Shown piece after piece: positions 7,642 through 27,326 of a DNA stretch of 64,000 nucleotides; within the stretch, counting starts at the first letter, position 1; each line of letters starts with the position of its first letter. This stretch comes from Streptomyces sp. Alt3. GTDB taxonomy: Bacteria; Actinomycetota; Actinomycetes; Streptomycetales; Streptomycetaceae. Both the position numbers and the translations under genes were made by a program. Where the stretch lies: the NCBI RefSeq assembly GCF_030719215.1, contig NZ_CP120983.1:1612001-1676000 (forward strand), read 5' to 3'. The notes beneath the pieces are model-generated. The model ran no database searches. It saw only the letters and a program-made list of their open reading frames with translations, and was not told where the DNA came from.

Positions 7642-7998
7642 GGCTCAGCGCCCCCTCTACACTTCGGCCGCACGCGGGCCGCCGCTGACGATATGGACGA
7701 CGTTACTGGCAGCACGCTGCACTGCGGGGCTAGTTCTGTCAGACGCGTACCGCCTTCGCTGGGACGCCGAGCAGCGCCTGGCCTTCAACGGCCGCAGCGG
7801 CCTGCGCGAGCGGACGGCGTTCACCGACCTGCTTCGTGAGTACGTTGGCTGACTCCCGTCGGGCCAACTCGTCCGCCCTTGAGGTCTGCGCACGTCAAGG
7901 GCCAGAAACCCGCCCTGTTCCCGTAGCCGCAGAGATAGGGTGACCTTCGGTGATGGTGCAACACGGTGACGCGGTCGCGAGAGGGTGACGCAGAGAAC
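7642..7998. other. Divergent intergenic region with a short coding remnant
   Basis: This ~357-bp gap separates the divergent 7123-7641 gene and the kinase and should hold both promoters. A plus-strand open stretch ending at 7852 contains LSDAYRLRWDAEQRLAFNGR and TAFTDLLREYVG, which reads like the tail of a lost gene. I do not recognise the family and see no start with a ribosome site. Confidence 0.4.
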
Positions 7999-9273: not shown

Positions 9274-9311
9274 CGCATGCGAAACAGCAGTATGAAGGAA
9301 TGGAGCGGTAC

Positions 9312-12300
9312 GTGACCAGCGTGACGGAGACCGGTGACGGTCAGGGCGCGTTCGACACGGAGGACGCTGCGGATGAAGCAATGGACTCCGGCGTTCCCGG
9401 CCCCACGGGGGCCGCCTCCCTGACCCGTCAGGCCAAGTACGCGCCAGGCGCGCAGGTCCGGGTCCGGGACGAGCAATGGCTGGTCAAAACCGTCACGCCG
9501 GTGGGTGACGAGGACTGGATGGTCGAGGCGACCGGAGTCTCCTCCTTCGTCCGCGGGACCGACGCCGTCTTCTACGACAAGCTCGACTACATCGAGGCCC
9601 TCGACCCGAAGAAAACCCTCCTGGTCCCGGACGACTCCCCGAACCACCGCAAGGCCCGCCTCTACCTGGAGGCGGTCATCCGCAAGACCGCGCTCCCGCA
9701 GACCGAGCACGGTCTCGCGCTGGCCGACAACTTCCTCATGGACCAGCAGACCCACCAACTGCGCCCCGCCGAGCTGGCCTTGTCCAAGGAGAATCCGCAG
9801 CCGCGGGTTCTGATCGCCGACGTGGTGGGGCTGGGCAAGACCCTGGAGATTGGCATCCTGCTCGCCGAGCTCATCCGCCGCGGGCGCGGCGAGCGCATTC
9901 TGGTGGTCACTCCGGCGCATGTCCTGGAGCAGTTCCAGCGCGAGCTGTGGACCCGCTTCTCCATCCCGTTGGTCCGCCTGGACTCCACCGGTATCCAGCG
10001 CATCCAGCGCGACATCCCGGCCGGCCGCAACCCGTTCGCGTATTTCAAGCGCGCGATCATCTCCGTGGACACCTTGAAGAGTGACGTCTACGCCCACCAC
10101 CTGGAGAACTCCCACTGGGACGCGGTGGTCATCGACGAGTCGCACAACCTGGTCAACCGCGGCACCAAGAACAACGACCTCGCCCGCGCCTTGGCCGAGC
10201 ACACCGACGCGCTGATCCTCGCCTCCGCGACTCCGCACAACGGTGCGACGGAGTCCTTCGCCGAGCTGATCCGGATGCTGGACAAGACGGCGATCGCGAA
10301 CACGTCGGAGTACGACGTGAAGGACCTCGGCCACCTGTACATCCGGCGGACCAAGACCGACCGCGAGGTCCGTGACTCCCTCAAAGGCAAGTGGGCCGAC
10401 CGCGGCCCGTCCCGGCCGGTGATCTGTGAGGCCGGGCCGAAGGAGCGGGCGGTCCTGGAGGAGCTCGCCGCACGGTGGACACCGCGCGATCCGGCCGCTT
10501 CTTCGGTGTGCGCGGACACGATGGTGGCCTACAACCTGCTGAAGTCGTTCCTGTCCTCGCACCGGGCTTTCCAGGACTCGGTCGTGGCACGGCGGAAGGT
10601 CCTGGAGGCTCCCCTCAAGGCCAGGAGGGGGCAGGATCCGGCGGCCCGCGAGGCCGAGCGCCGGATCGAGCGCGAGGCCATCGTGGAGCTGGAGCGCCTT
10701 GCCGCCGACATCGGCGACGACGACTCCGCGAAGCTCGACGCCCTGGTGCGCGAGCTGAAGGAGATCGGGGTGGGTCCGGGGTCGGACATGCGGGTCGTGG
10801 TCTTCTCAGAGCGCATCCCCACCTTGAAGTGGCTCGCTGAGGTTGTCCCGGCCAGGCTCGGTTTCCGGGCCGGTACCAAGCTTGAGGAGTCCGTGGCGGA
10901 GTCGAAGCCTTGGCTGGCCTACGGCGGCGCGGTCCAGGTCATGCACGGCGAGGCCAGCAACGAGGACGAGCAGAAGGACATCGTCTCCAAGTTCGGGCTG
11001 AAGACCGACCCGGTCCGCATCCTGTTCACCGGCGATGTCGCCTCCGAAGGCGTCAACCTGCACCAGCAGTGCCACCAGTTGATTCATTACGACCTTCCGT
11101 GGTCGCTGATCCGCATCGAGCAGCGTAACGGCCGTATCGACCGTTACGGACAGAGCAAGGCCCCTCAGTTCCGGGCCATGGTCCTCACCGGCGATGTGGA
11201 GTGGCGCACGGATGAGAAGGGCGAACCGCTGCATCTGGACGACCGCCTGGTGGGCTCCAAGCTTCTGGCCCGTGAGGAGGAGGCGCATCGGATCGAGGGC
11301 TCGGCGGAGGCCGTCACCGGTATCTACCGGGCAAAGGAGGAAGAGGACCGTCTGACGCGGGACTTGATCTCCGGACGGACGGTCGAGGAGTCCATCAAGA
11401 AGTCCAGCGGCGGCGCGAAGGCGATGCTCGGCCGGCTGATGGGCAATGTCGGTGCCAAGAAGCCGACCGACGACGTGCCCGTCGCCACGGTGCCGAGCCT
11501 GTTCGGCGCCGCAGGTTCCACGGCGGCCTACTTCGACGAGGCGTTGCGCCAGACGTACTTCCCCGACAAGCCGGAGAACGTGCTCAAGCTGCGCCGTGAG
11601 GGCGACGGCACGATCGCCTTCGAGCCGCCGCCGGATCTGGTGTACCGGCTGAAGTCGCTGCCCAAGTCGTACCTGACCGACCAGGGCATCCTGCCGACCG
11701 CTAAGAAGGAGGGCCGGCTGCGGCTCACCTTCGACAAGGGGCTCGCCGCCAAGCGTCTTGAGGTCGCCCGGGAGACCACCGAGAGCCAGTGGCCCAACGT
11801 CAGTTACGTGTCGGACGTCCATCCCGTCCTGGACTGGGTGACCGACAAGGCCCTGGCCGCCCTGCGCCACGACGAGGCGTTCGTTCTCGCCTTCGCCCCC
11901 GATCTCGAAGCGGCAGGGAAGCTCGACGAGCGGCTGCCGGCCGACCTGGCCGGTCCGGTGTATCTGGTCCAGGGCATCTACTCCAACGCGGTGGGCCGCC
12001 CTACCGTCGTGGAGTGGATGGCCGTCGTCGGCCTGCCCACCGCCCCGCGCGTTCTACGGATCGACGACGCCTTCCTCACCGCGTGCAAGGTCGGCCCGAA
12101 GATGCCCGGACGCGCCACCCCCGCCGACCGGGAGGGGCTCCAGACGCTGGTGCCGACGGCCGTCGACGCGGCGACCGTGTTCCTCACCGACCGGGCGGCG
12201 GAGTACAAGGAGGCGATCGACGCGGTGCTCGCCCCGTACGAGAAGCGGGTCGCCCAGTGGCAGCAGGACGCACTCTTCGCCGCCTCCACACGCTCGCAGA

Positions 12301-12476
12301 AGGCCAAGCAGGACGTGAACCTCACGGCGAGCCGTCGCAAGTCCATGATCCGGTCGCTGCGGACCTCCGGAGCGCCGATGCTGCGCCTGCTCGGTGTCCT
12401 TGAACCGCTGTCCGCGACGCCTGCTGGCGTCACCGATGTATCTGCTGCGCCTGTTGCCGGAGAGACGATCGCCTGA
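9312..12476 (+). CDS. SNF2-family SF2 helicase (DrmD-like)
   Basis: This ~1054-aa SNF2/HepA-type ATPase has Walker A ADVVGLGKTLEIGILL at about residue 173, motif II as DESHN at ~274, motif III SATPHNG at ~306, and the C-terminal lobe with GDVASEGVNLHQQCHQL and motif VI RIEQRNGRIDRYGQ at ~575-615. This organisation matches DrmD of class 1 DISARM and related helicases, which act with a methylase and a DUF1998 helicase against phage DNA. The start is uncertain: GTG 9312 has GGAG six bases upstream, while ATG 9300 has AAGGA too close. The stop overlaps the next start by one base (TGATG), so translation is coupled to the methylase gene. The C-terminal ~300 residues contain no recognised domain. 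Confidence 0.88.
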   Translation: MTSVTETGDGQGAFDTEDAADEAMDSGVPGPTGAASLTRQAKYAPGAQVRVRDEQWLVKTVTPVGDEDWMVEATGVSSFVRGTDAVFYDKLDYIEALDPKKTLLVPDDSPNHRKARLYLEAVIRKTALPQTEHGLALADNFLMDQQTHQLRPAELALSKENPQPRVLIADVVGLGKTLEIGILLAELIRRGRGERILVVTPAHVLEQFQRELWTRFSIPLVRLDSTGIQRIQRDIPAGRNPFAYFKRAIISVDTLKSDVYAHHLENSHWDAVVIDESHNLVNRGTKNNDLARALAEHTDALILASATPHNGATESFAELIRMLDKTAIANTSEYDVKDLGHLYIRRTKTDREVRDSLKGKWADRGPSRPVICEAGPKERAVLEELAARWTPRDPAASSVCADTMVAYNLLKSFLSSHRAFQDSVVARRKVLEAPLKARRGQDPAAREAERRIEREAIVELERLAADIGDDDSAKLDALVRELKEIGVGPGSDMRVVVFSERIPTLKWLAEVVPARLGFRAGTKLEESVAESKPWLAYGGAVQVMHGEASNEDEQKDIVSKFGLKTDPVRILFTGDVASEGVNLHQQCHQLIHYDLPWSLIRIEQRNGRIDRYGQSKAPQFRAMVLTGDVEWRTDEKGEPLHLDDRLVGSKLLAREEEAHRIEGSAEAVTGIYRAKEEEDRLTRDLISGRTVEESIKKSSGGAKAMLGRLMGNVGAKKPTDDVPVATVPSLFGAAGSTAAYFDEALRQTYFPDKPENVLKLRREGDGTIAFEPPPDLVYRLKSLPKSYLTDQGILPTAKKEGRLRLTFDKGLAAKRLEVARETTESQWPNVSYVSDVHPVLDWVTDKALAALRHDEAFVLAFAPDLEAAGKLDERLPADLAGPVYLVQGIYSNAVGRPTVVEWMAVVGLPTAPRVLRIDDAFLTACKVGPKMPGRATPADREGLQTLVPTAVDAATVFLTDRAAEYKEAIDAVLAPYEKRVAQWQQDALFAASTRSQKAKQDVNLTASRRKSMIRSLRTSGAPMLRLLGVLEPLSATPAGVTDVSAAPVAGETIA

Positions 12477-15400
12477 TGAGTACCGACTTCGACTCCTTCT
12501 CCAACCGCGGCGAGTACCTGTCCGCGTTCTACTTCGCCGAGCAGCTCGGCGACGGCCTCAAGAAGGGGGTCTTCGCCACCTGGACCAACCGAGAGAGCGA
12601 CGAGCACGACCCGCGCCCCACGCCGCGCGAGTCGGTGCGGGCACTGCGCTCGACGTACCTGGAGGAGAAGTACCGCGGCTTCTTCGCCGAGCAGGCCAAG
12701 GCCGACGAGCAAGACGACGAGTATCCGCACGCCACGGCCTTCGAGGCCCGCCTCAACACCTACGGGGACGAGGAGTGGTGCGAGCGCGTTCAGGACTGGC
12801 ACCGGCAGGTACTCGCCGCGCTCGGCTTCCCCTCCGTCTCAGCGGAACCCACCGCACGGACCCTGACTGTGCACCGCGCCGGGCGCGAGCACGAGGTGAC
12901 CGTGGCCTGGCACAGCGACGGCATCGTAGCCCTGGACTGTGGCTGGTCGGCGAGCAACGACACGGCACTTGACGCGGACGGGTACGGCCGCCTGCTCCAC
13001 CCGCTGCGGGCGGGCAGCGGTGAGACTTACGAGACCGGGCAGGCGCTCGCCACCTGGTTGTTTCAGAGCGAGCTAGGTGAGGAGGGTGGAGCGGCCCCGC
13101 GGTTCGTACTGCTCCTGTGCGGCGGCGTCATCGTCCTCGCCGACCGGCATGCCTGGGGCGAGGGCCGCTACCTCTCCGCAAACCTCGACGCCGCTCTGGA
13201 GCGCAACGACCGCCGCCAGCACGGCGAACTCGCCACGATCGCAGGCCTGTTCAGCCACGACGTACTAGCACCGGCCGAGGACGGCAAACCGCCGGCCATC
13301 GACGCGCTGGTCAAGGCGTCCCGCGACAACGCGGTCGGCGTCTCCGGGGAGCTTCGCGAAGGACTCCAGAAGTCCGTCGAGATCATCGCCAACGCGGTCC
13401 TGGATCGCCTGGAGGACTCCGGGCTCTACCCGCGCGACATCGAGCGCCCGGACCTGTCGTTCGCCCGGCAGCTCACCCGGGAGTCGCTGCGCTACCTCTA
13501 TCGAATTTTGTTCTTGTTGTATGCCGAGGCCCGCCCTGAACTGGGCATCCTGCCCGCCGACGACGGCTCCTACGAGGCTGGCTACTCGATGGCGCGCCTG
13601 CGTGAACTGGTTGAGCGCGACGAGCTGTTGACCGAGGAGACGGCTCGTAACGGATTCCATCTACACGCCTCGCTGGACGTCCTCTTCAAGAAGGTCAACA
13701 ACGGCTACCGGCCCTATGGCACCGAGCCGAACGACGACCTGCCCGGCGACGACGAGGACACCCGTCGTCGGAAGGCGAAGTACCGGAGCGAGGACCGTGG
13801 ACTGCGCTTCGAGCCCCTGCGCAGCGAGCTCTTCGAGCGTGGGTCCGTCCGCCTCATCGGCAACGAGACCCGCGACCCGCGCAGCGACGAGGACAACGAG
13901 CCGCGCTGGCTGGACCTGCGGCCGCGCAACAGCGCCCTGCACGAGGTGCTGCGTCTGCTGACCCTGAAGAAGGCCGAACGGGCCGGGGGCCGAGCGGGCT
14001 TTATCTCCTACCGCAACCTGGGCATCAACCAGCTCGGGGCCGTCTATGAGGGGCTGATGTCGTACACCGGCATCATCGCCGAGGAGGAGTTGTGCGAGGT
14101 CGCCAAGGGCGGCGACCCGGCGAAGGGCTCCTGGCTGGTGCCCTCGCAGCGGCTCAAGGAGTATCCCGAGAACACCTGGGTGACGTACGGCGACCGGGAC
14201 GCGGTGAAGGGGCTGCGCGGCCCGAAGAAGTACCCGCCGGGCCGGTTCGTGTACCGCCTGGCGGGCCGTGACCGGGAGACGTCCGCCTCGTACTACACGC
14301 CCGAGTCGCTGACGAAGGTCACGGTCGAGCTGGCGCTCAAGCAGCGTCTCGACCAAGAGCGGGACGCCGACGGAAACGTCGTGAAGACGCGCGCCTCGGA
14401 GCTCCTCAAGTACCGGATCTGTGAGCCCGCGCTGGGCTCGGGGGCGTTCCTCAACGAGGCGATCAACCAGGTCGCCGAGGAGTACCTGCGGCGTCGGCAG
14501 GACGAGCTGGGTGTCTCCGTGCCGACGGGCGACGCGCTGACGGAGAAGCAGAAGGCCAAGGCGTACATCGCCCTGCACAACGCTTACGGAGTCGACCTCA
14601 ACGCGACCGGCGTCGAGCTGGCCGAGGTCTCGATGTGGCTGAACACCATGCATCCCGGGATGCGGGCCCCATGGTTCGGGCTGCATCTGCGGCGCGGCAA
14701 CTCGCTGATCGGCGGGCGGCGGGCCGTGTACGCGGCGGGGGACGTGTCCCCGCTGAAGGGCAAGGCCCCCTGGCTCAACGCCAAGCCGCTCGCGCCGGAA
14801 CCGCTGCCGTTCCTGCAGGACGGGGCCGAGCAGCCGCTGCCGGACGGGGCGGTACACCAGTTCCTGCTGCCGACACCGGGGTGGGCGGCAGTCACGGGTG
14901 CGAGCGGCGACGCGAAGAAGCTGCTCGTGCAGCTGGCCGAGGGTGGGGTGAAGGATCTCGGGGAGTGGAAGAAGGGAATCCTGAAGACGCCGGCACGGCG
15001 GCTGAACAAGAAGACCGGCGAGCCGATCCTCGACCGGAAGTCCGGCGACGAGGCGGCCTCGCAATACACGCGGCTGCGGGATGCGGCGCGGCGGGCGGAG
15101 TTCCTGTGGTCGCTGGTCGTCAAGCGGATGGAGCTGTCGGAGCGGGAGATCGCCCGCAGCATCGACGTGTGGGGCGCGGATACGAAGGACGAGGAGTTTG
15201 CCTTCCTGCGGCGGTCCGAAGGCGACGGGGATAGTTCGGATGCCGCCGCCGTCCGGATGTCGAAGGAGAAGGTGTACGCGGACCTGTTCCGTGCGGCGGG
15301 AACCCCGTACTGGCGGCTCAAGCGCGTCATGGACGCGTGGTGCGCGCTGTGGTTCTGGCCAGTGGGCAAGGCAGGGCTGCTCGACGGGACAGACGACGCG

Positions 15401-18154
15401 TATGCGGGTGCGCCGGTGGTGGGGGGTGAGGGCGCGGGGAGTATCGGCGACTTGATCGAGGCGATGTCCGCGACGGTGGTGCCGCTGGGTGATGCGGCAC
15501 CGCCCGTCGAGGCCGCATCGGAGACTGAGATCGGGGTGACCCCGCCTCCCTCCCCGCCCATGCCTACGAGCGCACCCCGCTTCGTGGAGAACACCATGCT
15601 CTTCGCTATGGAGGGCGACCAAATCTCGATGTCCGACATCGAGGCGTCCTCCGACGGCGTGGTCCACGTGGTGGTCAAGGAGGTCGGCCCGTCGAAGACG
15701 ACGGTGAAGACCAGGAAGCAGCCCTCCCCCGATCTCTCCCGACCCGCCCGCCGGCCGCTCATCGCGCTGAAGGACCTCGACGACTGGCTGGACTTCCTGG
15801 AGGCCATGCTCGGCCGTGGACCGGTCCCGGACGCCGGATCGCTCATCGGGTCCCTCAACACCCTGGAGGAGCTCAGCGAGTACGAGCAGCTCATCCAGGA
15901 CGAGACAGAGATGGACATGGACCAGTGGGAGCCGGAGGCACGCTTCCCCTGGATGGGAGCGGTACGCGACATCGCGGAGGACCAAGGGTTCCTGCACTGG
16001 GAGTTGGACTTCGCGCTGGCCTTCGCCGAGGGCGGAGGGTTTGACCTTCAGGTGGGGAACCCGCCGTGGGTGCGGCCGGAGTGGAAGGAGAACTCCGTCA
16101 TCGCGGAGTTCGAGCCATGGTTCATGCTGACGGAGAAGCCACCGGCGGCGGAGAAACATCGGCGGCGGACGGCGGAACTGGCGAGGCCGAAGGTAGCGGC
16201 GTACGCGCTGGGTGCGGTGACGTCGACGGTCACGGTGGCGGACTATTTGGCGGCGCCGCAGGTATATCCGCTGATCGCAGGGAGCCAGCCGGACCTGTAC
16301 CGGGCGTTCATGTGCCAGGTGTGGGCGCATACGGCGGGGTCCGGCTGCGCTGGGATGGTCCACCCCGACACGCATTTCAACGGGGACAAGGAGGCCGCGC
16401 TGCGGGAAGCTGCGTACCGCCGACTTCGAATGCACGGGGACTTCGTCAACTCGGGCAACCGCTTCTTCCCGCCGCCGGTCGGGCGGTCCAGCCACTTCGG
16501 CGTGCACATCTACGGCGAGTACGGGGAGATCGACTTCCAGCACCTGTCGTGGCTCTTCTCCGTAGACGCGTTCCGGCTCTCGGGCGCACACGACGGAAGC
16601 GGTGACGCACCAGGCGTCAAGTTCGACGGCGGCTGGGACGAGCGGGCACACCGGAAACGCGTCGTACGGGTCACCCCGCACACCTTGAGCAGGTGGCAGC
16701 GGCTGTCCGGCGAACAGGACGTCCCGGTCGAGCGGGCGCGCTTGCTGACGCCGGTAAGTACGGCGGAGGACCCCGCGATCGACGCGCTCGCCGCGTATCC
16801 GCTGCGGCTCGGGGCGCTTGACGCTCGGATCACTCGCGGCTTCGACGAGAGCGTGGCGAAGAAGTCGGTCTACGGGCCGAACGAGGATACGCCGCTCATC
16901 GACTACAACAAGGGGCAGAAGGACCGGGAGGACTACCAGGCGGACTCTTGGGAGGATGTCATCCTCAAGGGACCCCAGCTCGGGGTCGCTAACCCCTTCT
17001 TCAAGCAGCCCAGCCAGGGCGGTGGCGAGGTGCTCGGGCTCAACCATGTCGAGCTGGCGTTGGACGCGGTGCCTGAGTCGGAGTACCGGCGGGTGGCAGA
17101 CCGGTCGACTTATCGCGGGGCTCAGGAGCGTTGGCTGGATCACACGGAGCTGGAGCGGCTGCGTGGATCTGACGAGGAGATCAAGGAGATGCGGGCACGA
17201 CTTGCCGAGAAGCTGAAGTGTCTGCCGCGGGAGATCGAATATGACTCCGTAGACAAGGCGTTCGTCGCCAAGGCGACGAAGCCGTACACCTCCTTTTACC
17301 GGCTGGCGTGGCGAAACCAGATCGCCCCAGATACAGAGCGAGCTCTCTACACCGCGCTGTTGTCTCCTGGCCCTGCACATGTTGGTGGGCTTCGCAGCGC
17401 TGCCGCTGCTCGAAATATCGACACAGCATTGGCGTGCGGCATGTGGTCATCGATTCCGCTCGACTACTTCCTACGCACGATCAATGCCTCACATCTCCAC
17501 GAAACTCGTTCGCAGACGCTTCCAGCCCCTCAGCGGGACCACCCCCTCGCCCCCGCCCTCCTCCTCCGCACCCTCCGCCTCAACTGCCTCACCACCGCCT
17601 ACGCCGACCTCTGGCAGGAGCTCCACGACCCCACCTGGTCCGCCTACGAGCCCTGGGCCCGCCCCTGGCCGAACATGACGACCGATCTCCATGCCATCAC
17701 CCCTACCTGGCAGCGCGACACCCCCCTCCGCACCGAGTACGCCCGCCGGGCCGCCCTCGTGGAGATCGACGCGCTCGTGGCTGTCTGGCTCGGCATCGAC
17801 GCCGCCACGCTCGTCACCATGTACCGGGCCCGCTTCCCGATCATGCAGGACTTCGACTCGGTCACCTGGTTCGACTCCGCCGAGTGCAAGATCGCCGGGA
17901 ACCGGTACACCTTCGGTCAGGGTCAGACCAGTGACCACTGGAAGGCCTTCGAGAAGTACCAGGCCGCCGAGAAGAACGACGCCCTTTCCGAGGCCGAGAA
18001 GCACCCCGTCCCCGACGGCTACACCGCCCCCTTCTACAAGGCCGACCGCGAGACCGAGATGCGCGAGGCCCACGCCTACTTCCAGAAGCGTCTCGACGCC
18101 GCCGTCGAGGCCGGTCAGTGGGACCCGGTCACGCAGGAGGTACCGAAGCCGTGA
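12476..18154 (+). CDS. Very large N6-adenine DNA methyltransferase (DrmMI-like, Eco57I/PglX-type)
   Basis: This 1892-aa protein contains the class gamma methylase signatures: motif I as EPALGSGAFLNEAINQ at ~650 and motif IV as NPPWVRPEW at ~1195. These bind S-adenosylmethionine and flip the target adenine for N6 methylation, probably marking self DNA in the operon's defence system. The N-terminal ~500 residues include the LYRILFLLYAEARPELGILP and GAVYEGLMSY segments typical of DrmMI, PglX and Eco57I-like proteins. A long ~540-residue insert separates motifs I and IV. Its variable part (~1010-1120) is acidic and proline-rich and probably flexible. The C-terminal ~550 residues should hold target recognition. 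The length exceeds typical DrmMI. It starts inside the helicase stop (TGATG) and ends by overlapping the next GTG (GTGA). Confidence 0.88.
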   Translation: MSTDFDSFSNRGEYLSAFYFAEQLGDGLKKGVFATWTNRESDEHDPRPTPRESVRALRSTYLEEKYRGFFAEQAKADEQDDEYPHATAFEARLNTYGDEEWCERVQDWHRQVLAALGFPSVSAEPTARTLTVHRAGREHEVTVAWHSDGIVALDCGWSASNDTALDADGYGRLLHPLRAGSGETYETGQALATWLFQSELGEEGGAAPRFVLLLCGGVIVLADRHAWGEGRYLSANLDAALERNDRRQHGELATIAGLFSHDVLAPAEDGKPPAIDALVKASRDNAVGVSGELREGLQKSVEIIANAVLDRLEDSGLYPRDIERPDLSFARQLTRESLRYLYRILFLLYAEARPELGILPADDGSYEAGYSMARLRELVERDELLTEETARNGFHLHASLDVLFKKVNNGYRPYGTEPNDDLPGDDEDTRRRKAKYRSEDRGLRFEPLRSELFERGSVRLIGNETRDPRSDEDNEPRWLDLRPRNSALHEVLRLLTLKKAERAGGRAGFISYRNLGINQLGAVYEGLMSYTGIIAEEELCEVAKGGDPAKGSWLVPSQRLKEYPENTWVTYGDRDAVKGLRGPKKYPPGRFVYRLAGRDRETSASYYTPESLTKVTVELALKQRLDQERDADGNVVKTRASELLKYRICEPALGSGAFLNEAINQVAEEYLRRRQDELGVSVPTGDALTEKQKAKAYIALHNAYGVDLNATGVELAEVSMWLNTMHPGMRAPWFGLHLRRGNSLIGGRRAVYAAGDVSPLKGKAPWLNAKPLAPEPLPFLQDGAEQPLPDGAVHQFLLPTPGWAAVTGASGDAKKLLVQLAEGGVKDLGEWKKGILKTPARRLNKKTGEPILDRKSGDEAASQYTRLRDAARRAEFLWSLVVKRMELSEREIARSIDVWGADTKDEEFAFLRRSEGDGDSSDAAAVRMSKEKVYADLFRAAGTPYWRLKRVMDAWCALWFWPVGKAGLLDGTDDAYAGAPVVGGEGAGSIGDLIEAMSATVVPLGDAAPPVEAASETEIGVTPPPSPPMPTSAPRFVENTMLFAMEGDQISMSDIEASSDGVVHVVVKEVGPSKTTVKTRKQPSPDLSRPARRPLIALKDLDDWLDFLEAMLGRGPVPDAGSLIGSLNTLEELSEYEQLIQDETEMDMDQWEPEARFPWMGAVRDIAEDQGFLHWELDFALAFAEGGGFDLQVGNPPWVRPEWKENSVIAEFEPWFMLTEKPPAAEKHRRRTAELARPKVAAYALGAVTSTVTVADYLAAPQVYPLIAGSQPDLYRAFMCQVWAHTAGSGCAGMVHPDTHFNGDKEAALREAAYRRLRMHGDFVNSGNRFFPPPVGRSSHFGVHIYGEYGEIDFQHLSWLFSVDAFRLSGAHDGSGDAPGVKFDGGWDERAHRKRVVRVTPHTLSRWQRLSGEQDVPVERARLLTPVSTAEDPAIDALAAYPLRLGALDARITRGFDESVAKKSVYGPNEDTPLIDYNKGQKDREDYQADSWEDVILKGPQLGVANPFFKQPSQGGGEVLGLNHVELALDAVPESEYRRVADRSTYRGAQERWLDHTELERLRGSDEEIKEMRARLAEKLKCLPREIEYDSVDKAFVAKATKPYTSFYRLAWRNQIAPDTERALYTALLSPGPAHVGGLRSAAAARNIDTALACGMWSSIPLDYFLRTINASHLHETRSQTLPAPQRDHPLAPALLLRTLRLNCLTTAYADLWQELHDPTWSAYEPWARPWPNMTTDLHAITPTWQRDTPLRTEYARRAALVEIDALVAVWLGIDAATLVTMYRARFPIMQDFDSVTWFDSAECKIAGNRYTFGQGQTSDHWKAFEKYQAAEKNDALSEAEKHPVPDGYTAPFYKADRETEMREAHAYFQKRLDAAVEAGQWDPVTQEVPKP

Positions 18155-21100
18155 GGCCGACGCTCGAGGCGCAGGGACTCAAGGAGAGCCTGCTGCAGTA
18201 CCTGTCCACCACCTACGCGCTGACCGACGAGGGCGCGCGGCAGGCGCTGCACCGGTTCCTGGGGGACGAGAACTCCGGGATGTTCCGGGGGCCGTTCCAC
18301 CGCCTGCGCACGCCGTTCGTCGCGGCCGACGCGTCCTGGACCAGGTACCTGGACTGGCGTCGGACCGACGGCTGGACACCGTACGCGCACCAGGCGAAAG
18401 CCTTCGAGCGGCTGTCCTCGGCGGGCGGCCGTACGCCGAAGCCCACGCTGGTGACGACCGGTACCGGCTCCGGCAAGACGGAGTCGTTCCTCTATCCCGT
18501 ACTGGACCACTGCGCCCGCGAGCGGGCGGTCGGCCGGGCTGGGGTCAAGGCCGTACTCCTCTACCCAATGAATGCGCTCGCCACCGACCAGGCCCAACGC
18601 ATCAACGAACTTCTGTGTGAACACGAGGCGTTGAAGAAGGTGAGGGCCGGTCTCTACATCGGCGACAAGGCGGCGACGCACTACGACCGGGTGTACACGC
18701 GCCGGTCGGACATGCAGATCTCGCCGCCCGACATCCTGATCACGAACTACAAGATGCTGGACCTTCTGCTCCAGCGGGCCCAGGACGGCCCGCTGTGGGC
18801 GGACGCGGACATCCGGTACGTGGTCGTGGACGAGTTCCACACCTACGACGGTGCGCAGGGCACGGACGTCGCGATGCTTCTGCGCCGCCTCGCCTCGGCG
18901 GTCGGGGTGGCGGAGAAGGGCCGTCCGTTGGGGCGGATCTGCCCGGTGGCGACCTCGGCAACGCTCGCCTCCGACAGCACGGACCAAGACGGGGTCCGCC
19001 AGCTGCTCGACGTCGCGACGCAGGTGTTCGGTACGGAGTTCGACGCGTCCTCGATCGTCGGGGAGCACCGGCAGACGGTGGACGAGTTCGTGCCGCCGAG
19101 CGGCTTCGATCCGATGCTGCCGATCCCGGTCCCGGACGAGTTGGCCACCCTCCCTGACCCCTCACTCGGCGAGGAGGAGTTCCTCGCGCTCGTCGAGGCC
19201 GTCACCGGCACCCGTGAGACCGACCCGCTCGTGCTCGGTGGCCTGCTGAAGAAGCACATGCTGACCTCGGCGGTGATGCACGCTCTGGACGGGCAGGTGC
19301 GGACCGTGCCCGAGGTGCTGGACCTGATGTGGCGGCGGGGCGCGTTCTCCTGGGGGCAGGCGATCACCCGGCAGCCGGAGGTGGCGGCGTCCGCCCTCGC
19401 CCGGCTCTTGGCGCTGCTCTCGGTGGCTCGTGATCCGGCCTCCACGCCCGAGCGGCCGCGGCCCTTCGTGCAGGTCGAGGTGCATCAGTGGGCGCGGTCG
19501 GTGTCGCGGGTCGTGCGCGGTGTGCTGCCGTGGCCCAAGGCCGAGTTCCAGTGGGACTCGGCCGGTTCCGCCCACCACTCGGGCGAGCAGCCGGCCCGTA
19601 CCGCCCCGGTGACGACGGCGACCGCGGGCGCGGCCGCGAACCTGTTTCTGCCCGCTGTCTACTGCCGTGACTGTGGCCGTTCGGGCTGGGCGGTGTTCTC
19701 CCCGGAGACCGACGACGCGGACGTACAGGTCGACACGCACAAGATCCGGCGTGCCTCGGTCAGCCAGGACAAGATGCGTGTCCGGAACCTGATAGCGGCC
19801 ACCGAGAAGGAGTCCCAGGAGGGCTCCGGTGCCGCCCTGATGGACGAGGCCGGGCGCGGTGCGGGCCGGGGCAGCACCGCCCTCGCGGCCACCAACGCCG
19901 GGCAGTTGCGTGTACTGGACGGGCCGAAGCGCCGCCTGCGGCTGCCCGACCCGGTCGAGGACTACGACCAGGAGACCGGCGCGCCCCGGTTGGCGGGCTC
20001 CGACTCAGCCTTCGTCCTCGTCTACCTCGGGGACACCGCGACCACCGCCGCAGAGGACGACTGGTGTCCGGCCTGCGGCTCGCACAACGCGATCCGCTTC
20101 CTCGGTACCGGTGCCGCTGCCCTCGCCGCGGCCTCGGTCACCCAGCTGTTCACCGGCGGCGAGATGGACCGGGCGCAGGGTGAGGACAAGACCCTGATGT
20201 TCAACGACTCGGTGCAGGATGCCGCACACCGGGCCGGGTTCGTGGCCAGCCGCTCGTACACCTTCTCCCTGCGCGCACTGTTCAAGAAGCATCTGTCGGA
20301 GGAGACGCCGACCGCGCTGCACGACCTGATCGCCGACGTGGTCGCGGCGACCACCGACCGCGAGACCCTTGCCGCCGTCGTCCCCACCGACCTGCACGAC
20401 TTCAAGGGCGTCAAGCGGCTCCTGTCCGGTCAGGGGCGAGGCGGGGACAAGAAGACCTGGGAGCTGATCGGCGAGCGCTTCGCGTTCGAGGCGCTGATGG
20501 AGTTCGGCTTCCGCTCCCGCAACGGCCGCACCCTGGAGCTCACCCGCACCGCCGCCGCCCACGTGCGCATCGAGGACCCCGCCGCCGCGATCGCCCTGGT
20601 CAAAGCCGCGCACACCGAGCCGTACGGGCACGGCGGCGGGCTGCCGGTCATCGAGCAGGACGACGCCCGCTACCTCGGGTTCCTGCGGATCTTCCTGGAG
20701 CGGCTGCGGACCCGTGGCGCGATCGGTCACAAGTGGCTGGAGGGGTACCTCTCGGAGGCCGGTACCAGCCGGTACTTCATCTGGGGCAAGCGGCCTCCCG
20801 GTATGCGTGCCTTCCCCAAGGGCATCGCGGCCCCGGTGTTCCTGCTCAGCGCACCCAAGACGAAGAGCGAGTTCGACTTCGCGACCGGCCGTCTCTCCTG
20901 GTATGAGCGGTGGGCACAGCGCACGCTCGGGCTGCCGCGGGAGCAGGCCGCGGAGTTCTGGGCGCGGCTCCTGCCCGCGCTGGTCGAGGCGGGCCTGCTC
21001 TCGGTGCGCACTCCGACCGACAGCAGCCTGCGCGTCTTCGGTCTGAAGCCTGGCGCGATCGACGTACAGCTGTTGAAGGACGCCGAGGTGAACGAGGCGT

Positions 21101-24100
21101 TTGTCCGCTGCCCGGACTGCTTCTGGGAGCAGACCGTCCACCCCGGCCTGCTCGCGCAGTGGGACGGGCAGCGCTGCCCGTCCTACCGCTGCCGCACCGG
21201 CATCCTCGTCGCGGGCGACCGGCCCGAAGGGCTCGGCAAGCACCAGCGGGACCGTAACTACCGCGAGGACTACTACCGCAGGCTGTACCGGAAGGCGGGC
21301 ACGTACCAGGTCATCACGGCCGAGCACACGGGCATGCTGACCCGGCCGGAGCGGGAGCGGGTCGAGGCGGCGTTCAAGGACGGCAGCGGGTTCAAGGATC
21401 CCAACGTGCTGTCCTGTACGCCGACGCTCGAAATGGGCATCGACATCGGCGACCTGTCGGCCGTCGTGCTCGCCGCGCTGCCCAGGCGCGCTGCCAACTA
21501 CGCCCAGCAGGTGGGCCGGGCAGGGCGCCGTACCGGAAATGCGTTCCTGCTGACCATCCCCGACCGCAGCCGCCGAGACCTGTACTACCTGGAGCAGCCG
21601 CGCGACATGATCGCCGGGCAGATCGTGCCGCCTGGCAGTCACCTGTCGGCCATCGAGATCCTGCGCCGCCAGTACCTCGCACACCTCCTCGACCTCGCCG
21701 CGCGGGGCCGGCTGTCGCGCACTGACGGCCGTCCGCTACCCGCAGTCGTACGGGACGCTCCGGCCCTCTTCGGCCCGTCCGGATACCTCGCCGATCTCGT
21801 CGAAGCGGCGCTCGCGGACGCCTCGAACCTGGTCGAGGGGTTCCTGGACCTATTTCCCGTCGGCGTCAACGAGCAGTCCGCCGACGACCTGCGGGCCTTC
21901 GCCGGGCGTGGGCTGCGCAGCGCGGTGGAGCGGGCCGAGCGACAGTGGCTCCACGCCGAGGAGGTGCTGCGGCGGCGACTGCGGTACATCGCGGAGGCCC
22001 GCGACGAACTCCACGACACCGAGGACGAACAGCGCGACCGTAAGGCCGAACTCGACGCCGAACACCGGGCGCTCGGCAAGCGCTTGAGCAAGCTCGGGCT
22101 CATCACCGCCCAGCAGGCCCTGTGTGATCTCGGACTGCTGCCTAACTACGCGCTCATCGACTCCGTCACCACCCTCAACGCGACGCTGTACTGGGTCGAC
22201 GGTATGGATCCGAACACCGGCCGGGACCGCTTCGACTCCAAGATCCGCTCCTACGACCGGCCCCGGCGCTACGCCCTGTCCGAACTCGCTCCCGGCAACA
22301 CGTTCTACGTGAACGGCTACAAGCACGAGATCACCGGCATCGACATCGGCAGCCCCTCTCAGCCGGACTGGAAGGCCTGGCGGTTCTGCCAGGAGTGCGG
22401 CTACGTCCGTACCGAGGACGCCAAGGACGACCGCTCGCCATGCCCGCGCTGCGGCAGCGCCGGGATCGCGGACGACGGTTCCTGCCTGCACCAGGTCATC
22501 GAGCCCACGACCGTCACCTCCCGCGACAAGCGCGAGGACGCCCGTATCGGCGACGATAAGGACGACCGGGAACAGCGCTACTACACCGTCATCGACGCGG
22601 TGGACATCCCCCGGGAGGAAATCAAGCACGGCGCGTCCTGGCGGCACGCCCACCACACCTTCGGCGTCGACTACTGCCGCAAAGCGGTAATCCGCCGCAT
22701 CAACGTCGGCCCGATGCGTTTCGACAGCCAGACCGAGGACGAGCTCGCCGGGCAGGATGTCCGCATGGCCCCGTTCCACGTGTGCACCGCGTGCGGGGCG
22801 GCGAGCGCCGATGGCAAGCCGGTCTTCGACCACGCCATCGACGCCTTGGACTCCTCGGCCGCCCACAACCCGAAGGTCAAGCACCACCAGCCGTGGTGCC
22901 CGCTGCGGCGTGGGAAGAAGGCCGCTACCGTGCCCCAGCAGCCGGTGCTCCTCGCCCACCAGTTGAACACCGAGGCGCTGCGGGTGCTCCTGCCGGCGGC
23001 TACCGTGCTCGTCGAGGAGAAGATCTACTCCTTCAAGGCCGCACTGCGGCTCGGCGTCGACCGCCAGTTCGGCGGCGACCCCGCGCACCTGGACACCACG
23101 CTGGCCCGGATGCCCGACCAGGCCACCGGCGAGAAGCGCCACTTCCTGGTGCTCTTCGACCGGCTCCCCGGCGGCACTGGATATCTGGACCGGCTGACCG
23201 ACCCCGGCGACTTCAAGGAAATGCTCCTCAAGGCTCGTGCCGCGCTCCTCGAATGCCCCTGTCAGGACGAGGGCCTGCGGGCCTGCCACCGCTGTCTGCA
23301 CCGCTACACCGAAGAACGCCACCAGGACGTCGTCTCACGCCACGAGGCCCTGGAAATCCTCGGCGACCTCCTCGGCCCGGTCGACGAGAACGGCGAGCCG
23401 CTGCGCGACGCCGACGGTAACCCCGTCGACGGGTGGGCGGTCACCAAGGTGGCGTCCACCGAACTGATCGGCCTGGACAAGCAGGTCGAGTCCGACCTAG
23501 AGGCCCGCTTCCTGGCCGCCCTGCGCAAGTGGAGCGAGAACCAGGACGACGCCGCACTCGACGAGAGTGGAACGAACAGCGGATACCTCCGCTTCACCGG
23601 TCCCACGGCCAGTGCGGGAGAGGCCGCCGATACCGATTCCGTACGCTCGACCGGCTGGCGGCTCACCGCCCAGCGCAGCATGGAGCACACCCGCACCGAC
23701 TTCACCTTTGAATCCACCGACGGCCCCCGCCGACTCGTCACCGTCTACCTCGACGGCCACAGGTACCACGCGAGCCGCAAGCACAATCGGATCGCGCCCG
23801 ACTGCACCAAGCGCAACCAGCTGCGGGCCGACGGGCACATCGTCTTCCAGATCACCTGGGACGACCTGGAGCTCTTCGAAAAAGGCGACGCCGCCAAGGC
23901 GCAGCCGGTGTGGCCGCCTTATCGGCGCATCGGCCAGGACACCGCCAAGGAGTGGTATGAGGAGCTGGGCGGCGACCGCGCCCACTACTCGGCCGCTGTG
24001 TTCGCCAACCCCATCGACACGCTCCTCGCCTACCTGCGCCAGCCCTCCCGTACCGCATGGGGGCGGCGGGCCAAGGCGTTGGTCGGCGGGCTGATGAGCA

Positions 24101-24999
24101 TGCCGGAGCCGCTCGTACAGCAGGCCGACGGGGGCCAGGCACGCGAAGCCGTACGGGCCGCACTCACCGCCCTCGGCCGCGGTCAGGAGCCGGGGCCGGA
24201 AGCCGGGGAAGGCGACGGAGAGATCCTCGTCCTGCACGCCGTGGACGAAAACGGGCTGCCGCTGATCTACACCGTGGACGCCTCCGGCCAGGAGCCGGGC
24301 TGGAGCGCCATCGCCGTACTCGACGACCGCACCGAGAACCTGGGCACCACCGAACACAAGCTGATGTGGCGGTCCTGGCTGTACTGGTCGAACCTGCTGC
24401 AGTTCCTGGCCTTCGCCGGCGGCGATGGCATCCAGCTCGCGAGCAGCCAGGCCGCCGACTACCCGGTGGAAGTCCTCACCATCAGCGGCGGCGTCGGCGA
24501 ACTCGAATCGCTGATCGTCCAGCGGAACCCGGCTGCCGACGAGGTGAGTTCTGTGGCGGACAGCCGCACCGCGGTACTCGCCGATGCGGCCGACGCCGAA
24601 TCGACGGAAGAGACCTCCCTGGAGAAGATGGTCGCCGGCGTCCTGCGGGACCGGACCTGGGACGAGGACATCCTCGAGCTCCTGGAAGAGGACGAACCGG
24701 AATCCGACCTCACCCGGCTGGCCAAGAAGATCGCCGCCAAGGGCAAGAAGGCGCCTGTCTTCGGTTACGAACTGGGCGAACGCGGCTGGCAGACGGACTT
24801 CGCCTGGGACGACTCCCAAATCAAGATCGCCGTCGTCGTGGCGCCGGACACACACGGATCACAAGCCGAAGAAGAGCGCCGCAAACGCGACGAGGCCTAC
24901 GCCGCCGACGGCTGGACCGTACGTACCGCCACCGACTGGCTCGACCACCTCGACACCCTCCTGACACTCCTCCCCGACACGGAAGGCTCCCACTCCTGA
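18151..24999 (+). CDS. YprA-family DEAD/DEAH helicase with DUF1998/MZB and C-terminal nuclease-like domains
   Basis: This ~2282-aa protein opens with an SF2 lobe: TGTGSGKTESFLYPV at ~103, DEFH at ~226 and TSATLAS at ~269. The second lobe is far downstream: CTPTLEMGIDIGDLSAVVLA at ~1090 and QQVGRAGRR at ~1120. Cys pairs that look zinc-binding occur at ~505, ~640, ~987, ~1413 and ~1545. The DUF1998/MZB cluster CPCQDEGLRACHRCLHRY lies at ~1702. Residues ~1835-1910 (TDFTFE, VYLDGHRYHAS, RNQLRADG, ITWDDLE) resemble a Vsr/DUF559 nuclease fold, and a weaker repeat lies at ~2204-2268 (WQTDFAWDDSQIKIAVV, DGWTV). The start is GTG 18151, preceded by GGAGGT; the longer frame to 18118 is unlikely. Size and order resemble Druantia DruE and the YprA helicases of DISARM-related systems more than DrmA. 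Confidence 0.88.
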   Translation: MRPTLEAQGLKESLLQYLSTTYALTDEGARQALHRFLGDENSGMFRGPFHRLRTPFVAADASWTRYLDWRRTDGWTPYAHQAKAFERLSSAGGRTPKPTLVTTGTGSGKTESFLYPVLDHCARERAVGRAGVKAVLLYPMNALATDQAQRINELLCEHEALKKVRAGLYIGDKAATHYDRVYTRRSDMQISPPDILITNYKMLDLLLQRAQDGPLWADADIRYVVVDEFHTYDGAQGTDVAMLLRRLASAVGVAEKGRPLGRICPVATSATLASDSTDQDGVRQLLDVATQVFGTEFDASSIVGEHRQTVDEFVPPSGFDPMLPIPVPDELATLPDPSLGEEEFLALVEAVTGTRETDPLVLGGLLKKHMLTSAVMHALDGQVRTVPEVLDLMWRRGAFSWGQAITRQPEVAASALARLLALLSVARDPASTPERPRPFVQVEVHQWARSVSRVVRGVLPWPKAEFQWDSAGSAHHSGEQPARTAPVTTATAGAAANLFLPAVYCRDCGRSGWAVFSPETDDADVQVDTHKIRRASVSQDKMRVRNLIAATEKESQEGSGAALMDEAGRGAGRGSTALAATNAGQLRVLDGPKRRLRLPDPVEDYDQETGAPRLAGSDSAFVLVYLGDTATTAAEDDWCPACGSHNAIRFLGTGAAALAAASVTQLFTGGEMDRAQGEDKTLMFNDSVQDAAHRAGFVASRSYTFSLRALFKKHLSEETPTALHDLIADVVAATTDRETLAAVVPTDLHDFKGVKRLLSGQGRGGDKKTWELIGERFAFEALMEFGFRSRNGRTLELTRTAAAHVRIEDPAAAIALVKAAHTEPYGHGGGLPVIEQDDARYLGFLRIFLERLRTRGAIGHKWLEGYLSEAGTSRYFIWGKRPPGMRAFPKGIAAPVFLLSAPKTKSEFDFATGRLSWYERWAQRTLGLPREQAAEFWARLLPALVEAGLLSVRTPTDSSLRVFGLKPGAIDVQLLKDAEVNEAFVRCPDCFWEQTVHPGLLAQWDGQRCPSYRCRTGILVAGDRPEGLGKHQRDRNYREDYYRRLYRKAGTYQVITAEHTGMLTRPERERVEAAFKDGSGFKDPNVLSCTPTLEMGIDIGDLSAVVLAALPRRAANYAQQVGRAGRRTGNAFLLTIPDRSRRDLYYLEQPRDMIAGQIVPPGSHLSAIEILRRQYLAHLLDLAARGRLSRTDGRPLPAVVRDAPALFGPSGYLADLVEAALADASNLVEGFLDLFPVGVNEQSADDLRAFAGRGLRSAVERAERQWLHAEEVLRRRLRYIAEARDELHDTEDEQRDRKAELDAEHRALGKRLSKLGLITAQQALCDLGLLPNYALIDSVTTLNATLYWVDGMDPNTGRDRFDSKIRSYDRPRRYALSELAPGNTFYVNGYKHEITGIDIGSPSQPDWKAWRFCQECGYVRTEDAKDDRSPCPRCGSAGIADDGSCLHQVIEPTTVTSRDKREDARIGDDKDDREQRYYTVIDAVDIPREEIKHGASWRHAHHTFGVDYCRKAVIRRINVGPMRFDSQTEDELAGQDVRMAPFHVCTACGAASADGKPVFDHAIDALDSSAAHNPKVKHHQPWCPLRRGKKAATVPQQPVLLAHQLNTEALRVLLPAATVLVEEKIYSFKAALRLGVDRQFGGDPAHLDTTLARMPDQATGEKRHFLVLFDRLPGGTGYLDRLTDPGDFKEMLLKARAALLECPCQDEGLRACHRCLHRYTEERHQDVVSRHEALEILGDLLGPVDENGEPLRDADGNPVDGWAVTKVASTELIGLDKQVESDLEARFLAALRKWSENQDDAALDESGTNSGYLRFTGPTASAGEAADTDSVRSTGWRLTAQRSMEHTRTDFTFESTDGPRRLVTVYLDGHRYHASRKHNRIAPDCTKRNQLRADGHIVFQITWDDLELFEKGDAAKAQPVWPPYRRIGQDTAKEWYEELGGDRAHYSAAVFANPIDTLLAYLRQPSRTAWGRRAKALVGGLMSMPEPLVQQADGGQAREAVRAALTALGRGQEPGPEAGEGDGEILVLHAVDENGLPLIYTVDASGQEPGWSAIAVLDDRTENLGTTEHKLMWRSWLYWSNLLQFLAFAGGDGIQLASSQAADYPVEVLTISGGVGELESLIVQRNPAADEVSSVADSRTAVLADAADAESTEETSLEKMVAGVLRDRTWDEDILELLEEDEPESDLTRLAKKIAAKGKKAPVFGYELGERGWQTDFAWDDSQIKIAVVVAPDTHGSQAEEERRKRDEAYAADGWTVRTATDWLDHLDTLLTLLPDTEGSHS

Positions 25000-27326
25000 T
25001 GACCGCCCGGCTCAGCCTGTACGAAAAGGCCGAACACGAGCTGTACAAGCTCGACCGCTCGGTCAAGGGAAAGTTCTACGACTTCTGCCACCGATTCCGG
25101 CAGAACCCCGACCACCCCGGCCTCGACCTCAAGCCCCTCAAGGGCGACGGACGGGTCTTCCGTGCCAAGATCGACCAGTCCTACCGCGCCCTCCTCGCCA
25201 AGGCCGGCGTGGACGAGCACGGCCAGGAACGGTGGCTCGTCGTCGCGGTACGCCACCGCAAGCACGTCTACGAAGAACTCTCCGTCGCGATCAACCGCGT
25301 CACCGGTGAGATCGAGTTCGTCGACCTGTCCGTCGTCGGGCAGAGCGTGCTGCAGCGCGCCGGCGTCACCCTCACCCCGGTCGACCCGACGCCCGAGGCC
25401 GAGCTCCAGCAGCCGGCACCGACCCCGGAGGTTCACGAGTCGATCGCCGTAGAGCCCGCCGCACCGCTCCTCTCCGGGATCACCGGCGAGAACCTGCGGT
25501 CACTCGGCGTCGCGGCACAGCTCATCGACCTCGCACTCGCCGTCACCGAGAGCGGCGAGCTCGACCAGCTGGTCTCCGGCGCCCCGCTCCTGACCAAGGA
25601 CATCCTCTACGGCCTGGCCGCCGGGATGTCCATCGACGAGGTCCGGCGCGAGATCACGGCCCCCGTCGAGGTCGAACTCGCCGACACCGAACGTGACGAC
25701 CTCGGCGCGGCACTGGCCCGCACCACCGTCACCACCATCGACGACGACCTCCGCGTCGTACTGGAGGAAGGCGACTTCCGGGCCTGGAAGGTCTTCCTCC
25801 ACCCTGCCCAGGCCAAGCTCGTCGACCGCCGCTACAACGGTCCCGCCCGGGTCTCCGGCGGCCCCGGAACCGGCAAGACGATCGTCGCCCTCCACCGGGT
25901 CAAGCACCTGGCCCAGCAGCTCCCTCCCGGCCACAACAAGCCCATCCTGCTCACCACCTTCACCACCAACCTCACCGTCGACCTCCGCGCCCGCCTCTCC
26001 TCCCTCCTCGAACCCGACCTCGTCGCCCGCGTCGAAATCACCAACATCGACAAGCTCGCGGCCCGCGTCCTGAACGAGAACTCACTCAGCGGCACCGGCA
26101 AGCAGCGCATCTACGACAGCGTCGCGATCGGCATCCTCCAGCACCTCCTGTTCGAACTCGACGAGAAGCGCTGGGAGCCCGAGTTCCTCTACGAGGAATG
26201 GGAACAGGTGATCCTCGGCCAGTCGCTCGGCAACCGCAAGGCGTACTTCGAGGCCCGCCGCGCAGGCCGCGGCCGGTCCGTCAACCGCCCCGAACGCGCC
26301 CAGATCTGGAAGATCCTCGAGCAGTTCACCGCCCGCCTCGACAAGGAGAACCGCGAAACCTGGGGCCAGGCAGCCGAACGCGCGGCCCGCTTCGAGATGG
26401 AACGCGCCGCCAAGATCAAGGCCAGGCAGGACCGTAAGGACGAGGTCGGCGGCAAGGACCTCATCCACCGCGACGACAGCTCCGGCATGCGCTACATCGC
26501 CCACCGCTACCAGCACGTCGTCGTCGACGAGGCCCAGGATCTGCGCCCCGCTCACTGGAAGATGCTCCGCGCCATGGTCGCCCCCGGCCCCGACGACATG
26601 TTCATCGCCGGCGACACCTACCAGCGCATCTACGACCAGCAGGTCACCCTCGGCACCGTCGGCGTCAACATCCGCGGCCGCTCCTCCCGCCTCACCCTCA
26701 GCTACCGGACCACCAAGGAGATCCTCGCCCGCGCGATGCAGGTCGTCGATGCCAAGGGCAACGCCCCCGCCTACGACGACCTCGACGACGGCACCGACAC
26801 CCTCGCCGGCTACCGCTCAGTCCTTCGCGGCCCTATCCCCGAACTCGCCCCCTGCGACACCTGGGACGACGAACTCACCCAACTCGCCACCACCCTCCAC
26901 GCCTGGCGCGAGGAACTCACCTCCGGCGACGGCGGCAACAACCCGCGCCGCGACCCCCGCGGCAACATCGCTGTCTGCGTCGCCGACCGCGACTCCGTCA
27001 ACCAGGTCATGTACTACCTCGCCACCGAGGCCGGCATCACCGTAGCCGAACTCACCAAGGACGGCGTCAAGGGCGACGGCGAAGTCCACGTCGGCACCAT
27101 GCACCGCTTCAAGGGCCTCGAATACCAGAAGCTCGCCATCGTCGGCGCCCGCGACGGCGTCATCCCCCGCACCACAGTCATCGACCGCTACCGCGAATCC
27201 GACCCCCAGCGCTACGCCCGCGAGGAACGCAAGGCCCGCTCCCTCCTCTTCGTCGCCGCCACCCGCGCCCGAGACACCCTCCGCATCAGCTGGCACGGGA
27301 CCTCGAGCCCTTATATTTCCCAATAG
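24999..27326 (+). CDS. UvrD/Rep-type SF1 helicase with RelE-like N-terminal domain
   Basis: The true start is ATG 24999, overlapping the previous stop (TGATG); the product is 775 aa. Residues ~1-95 look like a RelE/ParE-fold domain: SLYEKAEHELYKLDRSVKGK, LDLKPLKGDGRVFRAKIDQ, YRALLAKAG and VVAVRHRKHVYEE. The SF1A helicase follows, with SGGPGTGKTIVALHRVKHL at ~287, VVVDEAQDLRP at ~510, GDTYQRIYDQ, SYRTTKEIL, GTMHRFKGLEYQKLAIVGA and LLFVAATRARD. Such helicases unwind or translocate on single-stranded DNA. It is the last gene of the overlapping four-gene operon, so it probably acts with the SNF2 helicase, methylase and YprA helicase. The RelE-like part may bind ribosomes, RNA or another protein; no cognate antitoxin is adjacent. 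Confidence 0.87.
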   Translation: MTARLSLYEKAEHELYKLDRSVKGKFYDFCHRFRQNPDHPGLDLKPLKGDGRVFRAKIDQSYRALLAKAGVDEHGQERWLVVAVRHRKHVYEELSVAINRVTGEIEFVDLSVVGQSVLQRAGVTLTPVDPTPEAELQQPAPTPEVHESIAVEPAAPLLSGITGENLRSLGVAAQLIDLALAVTESGELDQLVSGAPLLTKDILYGLAAGMSIDEVRREITAPVEVELADTERDDLGAALARTTVTTIDDDLRVVLEEGDFRAWKVFLHPAQAKLVDRRYNGPARVSGGPGTGKTIVALHRVKHLAQQLPPGHNKPILLTTFTTNLTVDLRARLSSLLEPDLVARVEITNIDKLAARVLNENSLSGTGKQRIYDSVAIGILQHLLFELDEKRWEPEFLYEEWEQVILGQSLGNRKAYFEARRAGRGRSVNRPERAQIWKILEQFTARLDKENRETWGQAAERAARFEMERAAKIKARQDRKDEVGGKDLIHRDDSSGMRYIAHRYQHVVVDEAQDLRPAHWKMLRAMVAPGPDDMFIAGDTYQRIYDQQVTLGTVGVNIRGRSSRLTLSYRTTKEILARAMQVVDAKGNAPAYDDLDDGTDTLAGYRSVLRGPIPELAPCDTWDDELTQLATTLHAWREELTSGDGGNNPRRDPRGNIAVCVADRDSVNQVMYYLATEAGITVAELTKDGVKGDGEVHVGTMHRFKGLEYQKLAIVGARDGVIPRTTVIDRYRESDPQRYAREERKARSLLFVAATRARDTLRISWHGTSSPYISQ

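Follow-up and report, generated by a model that had tools for sequence, protein, structure and literature searches.

The window, by which we mean the whole stretch of 64,000 nucleotides analysed from Streptomyces sp. Alt3, contains four overlapping genes at 9300-27326, all on the + strand, which on reading the ORFs we designate armA, armB, armC and armD. The first, armA (9300-12476), encodes a BrxHII/RapA-like SNF2 helicase of 1058 aa with SNF2 and Helicase_C domains (Pfam); among the PADLOC models it matches DrmD (9e-80) and BrxHII (2e-47). It is followed by armB (12476-18154), which encodes a PglX/type IIG-like N6-adenine methyltransferase of 1892 aa with Eco57I/N6_Mtase domains (REase_MTase_IIG 5e-237, DrmMI 3e-47), and by armC (18151-24999), the gene of a YprA helicase of 2282 aa counted from the GTG at 18151. 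The DEAD, Helicase_C and MZB/DUF1998 domains of ArmC, the last at residues 1629-1716, lie on one chain (Pfam), and the protein matches the DruE3 model at 2e-96 as against 2e-15 for DrmA. The fourth gene, armD (24999-27326), encodes a RelE-UvrD (GajB-like) fusion of 775 aa counted from the ATG at 24999, with UvrD_N (4e-25) and UvrD_C in Pfam and GajB (4e-25) in PADLOC; the mechanical start of this frame at 24057 was dropped because the homologues begin at 24999. The junctions can be read straight from the DNA as TGATG (armA/armB), GTGA (armB/armC) and TGATG (armC/armD). The families and overlaps proposed for these four genes in the first-pass annotation are thus borne out by the ORFs, the domains and the junctions. 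The identical four-gene order is found on one plasmid each of Streptomyces, E. coli, Microvirga and a cyanobacterium as well as in dozens of actinobacteria, so the operon is not a chance arrangement.

The same annotation referred to a survey of YprA helicases that had named such systems ARMADA. The survey exists (Bell et al. 2025, PMC12458937), and the locus falls under its definition of ARMADA type II, a strict order of BrxHII-like, PglX-like, YprA and RelE-GajB genes. According to this work, ArmA-D in E. coli blocks the phage without killing the host (non-abortive), and all four genes are required. A BrxA-like insert after RecA1 and zinc-binding modules also belong to the features of the type. 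The window operon has the same gene order, and its ArmD has the RelE-like N-terminus fused to a GajB-like UvrD helicase, as seen from Pfam, PADLOC and a structure model. The eight positions at which the E. coli system was tested by mutation all keep their residue here (8/8) in the alignment to the E. coli plasmid copy (L026), where the published residues stand at exactly the published positions: K180 and D279 of ArmA align with K136/D236 of E. coli, N1195 of the ArmB NPPW motif and G654 of its GxG motif with N971/G605, K109/D227 of ArmC with K110/D234, and K293/D510 of ArmD with K266/D454. The armC of the plasmid copy is about 98.8% identical to the O157:H7 chromosomal copies. In agreement with PMC12458937, the ARMADA operon of one E. 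coli chromosome has Druantia III-like and Zorya II genes next to it.

In the YprA tree, the window ArmC is found with the ARMADA II ArmC proteins and separate from those of ARMADA I, from DruE and from DrmA. As outgroups the tree had E. coli DruE (DruE3), one DrmA-like protein and six YprA proteins of type I order; these rows are few and their branches long, and the type I rows are proteins of type I order with no reference type I protein among them. The 19 ArmC rows make up one side of a branch with modest support (bootstrap 56, SH-aLRT 96), and the window ArmC lies inside starred sets made of ArmC only. Such a tree had been proposed as a check in the annotation; ArmC does not group with DISARM DrmA in it, and the four genes co-occur widely. 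The remark that DrmB and DrmC are absent is likewise correct, as the operon has no such gene and DUF1998 is within ArmC; other DUF1998-bearing genes exist elsewhere in the genome, in other loci, not all of which are classified. Judged by its sequence, the operon is a member of ARMADA type II, in a kinase-linked variant described below.

The C-terminal 548 residues of ArmC contain the motif D...DG...HA....N..A.D..KR, which is conserved across 92 ArmC proteins. The part encoded at 23485-24051 (+; residues about 1779-1967) is predicted from motif conservation and model matches to be an active Vsr-like nuclease domain. In the model of the ArmC tail (pLDDT 81), this part resembles DUF559-like and EDxHD/Vsr-like nucleases at Z 5.6-6.5, the matches being a DUF559-like endonuclease (Z 6.5) and the homing nuclease I-Bth0305I (Z 5.6), which are moderate values. 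The last ~100 residues match Hjc-type PD-(D/E)XK folds, again at a moderate Z of 4.6-4.8; we take this terminal PD-(D/E)XK-like domain (24682-24978, +; residues about 2178-2276) to be a predicted inactive one and a candidate dock for ArmD. The motif conservation and the nuclease matches (Z 4.6-6.5, below the level that settles a fold) agree with the reading of the ArmC C-terminus in PMC12458937, i.e., an active Vsr domain followed by inactive domains. A whole-model Foldseek search with the ArmC tail gave no significant match, and a profile search of solved structures with the tail returned only engineered proteins and tRNA methyltransferases, which were not taken as meaningful.

The RelE-fold domain of ArmD (24999-25328, +; residues 1-110) rests on a structure model. 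Pfam has no match in these N-terminal 110 residues; the AlphaFold2 model of residues 1-260 (pLDDT 90) matches RelE/YoeB toxins with a target TM of 0.71-0.81. Residue R63 (in YRALL) is invariant in A3. In the group of the G541, G677 and G450b loci, the member inspected (G541) has neither the YR motif nor the HR-type residues in its RelE domain, which suggests that catalysis is not always kept; since residues of the catalytic type are lost in one subgroup, RNase activity of ArmD is not safe as a general claim. ArmD is also found without ArmA, ArmB and the ArmC helicase in four genomes (G615, G665, G668 and G499; loci L068-L071 and L087-L090), the stand-alone homologues being 63-65% identical. 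Directly before each of them is an unrelated protein of ~890-950 residues, which has a sigma-region-4-like motif and, at its end, a match to the final domain of ArmC. At one of these loci PADLOC detects DndC, DndE, PbeC and, as a weak match, PbeD; a second locus has the same gene layout (G665 and G615 were checked). The joint recurrence of the ArmC terminal domain and ArmD covers four related genomes with Dnd/Pbe-type phosphorothioation loci, and its simplest reading is that ArmD would bind the inactive nuclease-like terminal domain of ArmC.

A Ser/Thr kinase gene (7966-9186, +; Pfam Pkinase 8e-34) ends 113 nt before armA, and no terminator-like site is present on the + strand between the two. 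The protein has its kinase domain at residues 22-272, followed by a low-complexity tail; G29, K50, E68, D144, K146, N149 and D161 are invariant in 55/55 orthologues. Of the loci that have a usable ArmA and whose upstream sequence is long enough, the kinase directly precedes armA on the same strand in all 55 loci of one actinobacterial ARMADA II group and in none of the 52 others. The loci were found via ArmB or ArmD and not via the kinase, so the search was unbiased towards it; species genomes scanned with an ArmB alignment that had a Tsukamurella sequence at its head added 80 named loci. Within the genus, ArmD is present at E<1e-100 in 48 of 296 genomes, and a co-directional Ser/Thr kinase precedes armA in every genus locus that has armA and enough upstream sequence. 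The kinase group includes Streptomyces, Micromonospora, Dactylosporangium, Plantactinospora, Nocardiopsis, Actinomadura and Glycomyces. It has an SH-aLRT of 99 on the ArmA tree, where the presence of the kinase takes one change versus 37 for shuffled labels; on the ArmB FastTree it takes 2 changes. Each of the 54 kinases compared is homologous to the 53 others. The other upstream genes recur in a median of 0 loci and never in more than five, and among the downstream genes 89% recur in none. The gaps between the kinase and armA are mostly tens of nucleotides, with 13 nt in Micromonospora and a 4-nt GTGA overlap in Glycomyces. A minus-strand ORF (7657-8979), antisense to the kinase in many loci, was not counted as a gene because it recurs only because the kinase does.

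The first-pass annotation had supposed that the terminal RelE-UvrD gene and the flanking kinase may together define a variant. Only the second half of this can be kept: the RelE-UvrD gene, as ArmD, is the fourth gene by which ordinary ARMADA II is recognised, and does not mark a variant, whereas the kinase does, being co-inherited with one group of actinobacterial ARMADA II. We believe that the kinase is probably a dedicated fifth component of this branch. Co-inheritance as such is linkage and not function, and the kinase could be a transcriptional or an unrelated regulator. The ARMADA II core does not need it, since the ARMADA II loci of E. coli, cyanobacteria, Nocardia and others have no such kinase. 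The main text of PMC12458937 does not mention the kinase, and a search of the open literature found no paper tying a kinase to ARMADA or YprA defence. The flanking Ser/Thr kinase of ARMADA II looks new.

The C-terminal peptide of the kinase, LRKRYAMQSAL (9151-9183, +), is a candidate docking motif singled out by tail conservation. The strict form [LIV]RxxYA is found in 44 of the 55 kinases, and in 49/55 if M is allowed in the first position ([LIVM]RxxYA); the tail mostly follows the pattern [LIVM]RxxYAxxxx[LF] and comes after a variable low-complexity linker. None of the 29 other kinases of the genome has the [LIVM]RxxYA tail, some of these 29 translations being possibly cut at the locus end. 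From this pattern, we infer that the tail may serve as a docking peptide. In the kinase tree, five Streptomyces loci (L157, L158, L182, L224 and L226) are apart from the rest, with a single clade not rejected (p-AU 0.31), and their kinases are without the tail motif; for both reasons the kinase may have been recruited twice, and a gain of the type II kinase in one or two recruitments is possible.

A second ARMADA-like operon is found in the same genome outside the window (G000:C1:2002163-2015678; L264, L265). Its order, YprA, SNF2 (BrxHII-like), methylase (PglX-like), is the gene order of ARMADA type I, and its YprA helicase has a Ser/Thr kinase fused at the N-terminus. In this genome the YprA frame is broken after RecA1, the first helicase domain; in the relatives a single frame of about 2,000-2,500 codons stays open. 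About 34 matches in 247 genomes of the genus span the whole of kinase and helicase in one open frame, and the fused gene is followed by the SNF2 and methylase genes in all 18 fused loci fetched (18/18). Two unfused loci of type I order have a kinase gene divergently adjacent. In the kinase tree, the type I-order kinase (other_L259) falls among other kinases of the genome and away from those of type II, to which it is not the closest relative, so the two kinase links look independent. Further DUF1998/MZB proteins, possibly DISARM-like, are encoded at G000:C1:2025255 and C1:6887947 in open frames of 898 and 581 codons, respectively; the former gene is close to the type I-order operon and in the same island.

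Several other genes surround the operon in the window. A GmrSD type IV restriction gene (4719-6824, -) is beside a putative OGG-like 8-oxoguanine glycosylase gene (3691-4704, -), and an S. cellulosae plasmid has a GmrSD gene, 81% identical, at the same place beside its ARMADA. Among the other loci searched, GmrSD keeps this position only on that plasmid, and it was not retained as a part of the operon. Behind armD, 27470-29242 (+) encodes a protein of 590 aa that weakly resembles the N-terminal domain of CoiA (E 0.097); judged by eye, its CoiA-type ExQ residues are presumably degenerate (RVQ). The CoiA-like and OGG-like genes were also rejected as operon parts, having been found in none of the other loci searched. 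An IS4/5-family DUF4096 transposase gene (29260-29709, +) is located just behind the defence genes. Elsewhere, the armB-armC junction is an insertion site: G623, G573, G632, G549, G479, G461, G553, G460, G619, G629, G497 and other genomes have insertions of 2-20 kb there, which carry an XRE-DUF5753 regulator, an HATPase_c_2 gene and variable cargo, e.g., GmrSD_N with an AAA_15/DUF3696 ATPase. Here a defence hot spot is nested within an operon for which a strict order has been described.

We presume, with a probability of about 0.72, that the locus encodes an ARMADA type II antiphage system in which a dedicated Ser/Thr kinase is the probable fifth component, the whole being switched by phosphorylation. 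ArmA and ArmC would act as ATP-driven DNA motors that engage phage DNA on entry or during its replication, with two or three helicase motors in all, and ArmB would part self from non-self by making or reading N6-adenine methylation. The Vsr-like domain of ArmC would cut DNA; ArmD, docked on the inactive nuclease-like end of ArmC, would add unwinding and perhaps RNA cleavage where the RelE site is intact. The kinase would bind the complex via its C-terminal [LIVM]RxxYA peptide and, by phosphorylation, turn the assembly on or off during infection. For this step, the nearest functional precedent is PglW, which is thought to act so in the Streptomyces Pgl system (PMC4365076). Taken together, the data suggest phosphorylation control of this ARMADA II branch.

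On another explanation, the system is plain ARMADA type II, and the kinase, although linked to it on one mobile unit, has a function of its own, for instance as a solo defence kinase of the PD-T4-6 kind. The best PADLOC matches of the kinase are in fact PD-T4-6 models, and PD-T4-6 is reportedly a single-gene kinase defence. A separate gene, however, would hardly keep its place immediately in front of armA in 55/55 loci when all the other neighbours vary, nor would it be expected to overlap armA by 4 nt in Glycomyces, to have a counterpart fused to YprA in the type I-order operon and to share a tail peptide across most of its family; for these reasons, and even considering that the E. coli ARMADA II works without a kinase (PMC12458937), we regard this explanation as unlikely.

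Somewhat less probable still is that the kinase is an operon regulator, which controls the expression of armA-D rather than the activity of the complex. Regulators do gather at such loci, as seen from the XRE-DUF5753 and HATPase_c_2 pairs between armB and armC in other ARMADA II; but Pfam detects no DNA-binding domain in the kinase, and the fusion of a kinase with the YprA helicase in type I order speaks for an effect on the machinery as such. As for the view that the operon is a variant of DISARM or Druantia rather than ARMADA, we consider it very improbable. The best matches of ArmA and ArmC are DrmD and DruE3 models, taken from a PADLOC library of 2023 that predates ARMADA; against this, the DUF1998 part is fused within ArmC, the operon has no DrmB, DrmC or DruH gene, RelE-UvrD is present, and the tree parts ArmC from both DrmA and DruE3.

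Beyond the phosphorylation-switched type II system proposed for the window, a wider statement can be made, to which we give slightly less than even odds: the ARMADA systems of Streptomyces and its relatives may be phosphorylation-controlled in general, with a kinase taken up on two or more occasions, upstream as a gene of its own in type II and joined to the N-terminus of YprA in type I order, in parallel to PglW. The type II kinase would dock by its C-terminal peptide, and ArmD would be an exchangeable effector, which either ARMADA or Dnd/Pbe could take up by way of one and the same inactive nuclease-like adaptor. For ARMADA, described in 2025, the sensing of phage and the sparing of the host are points at issue, and a dedicated conserved kinase would offer a direct handle on activation. 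The kinase-YprA fusion in the type I-order operon points to the subunit that the kinase likely touches. The terminal domain common to ArmC and the Dnd/Pbe-linked protein predicts an ArmC-ArmD interface, and it suggests an exchange of whole effectors between defence systems, with adaptor domains as the means.

Among the known systems, Druantia III (DruH-DruE) resembles the window operon in that DruE is a related YprA helicase-nuclease. It differs in that the operon has no DruH, and the nuclease of DruE is of the PLD and not of the Vsr type according to PMC12458937; instead of a DruH-DruE pair, the window has an ArmC flanked by ArmB and ArmD, and the tree sets this ArmC apart from E. coli DruE3. 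DISARM class 1 has DrmD-like and DrmMI-like genes in common with it, but in that system DrmA and DrmB are two different chains, and the nuclease DrmC belongs to the PLD type. The window operon shows neither arrangement: DUF1998/MZB is within ArmC, and there is no separate DUF1998 or PLD protein among the four operon genes. The Pgl/BREX type 2 system of Streptomyces (PMC4365076) likewise associates a PglX-like methylase with a Ser/Thr kinase, PglW, the kinase activity of which is required for phage resistance; PglW is, however, a larger multidomain protein, and the other subunits differ. No PglZ over the curated cut-off is found anywhere in the genome, and membership in Pgl is not claimed. ARMADA type I (YprA - BrxHII-like - PglX-like) has the YprA gene first and is without the RelE-UvrD gene; it shares three protein families with the window operon, and the Streptomyces operon of type I order is likewise kinase-linked, by fusion. 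The closest counterpart is ArmABCD of E. coli NCTC 12900 (ARMADA type II; PMC12458937). The window proteins are 29-34% identical to the E. coli plasmid copy, ArmB and ArmC are longer in the window, and the upstream kinase gene of the window is absent in E. coli, but the four genes, their order and overlaps, the domain content and all eight mutated residues are the same.
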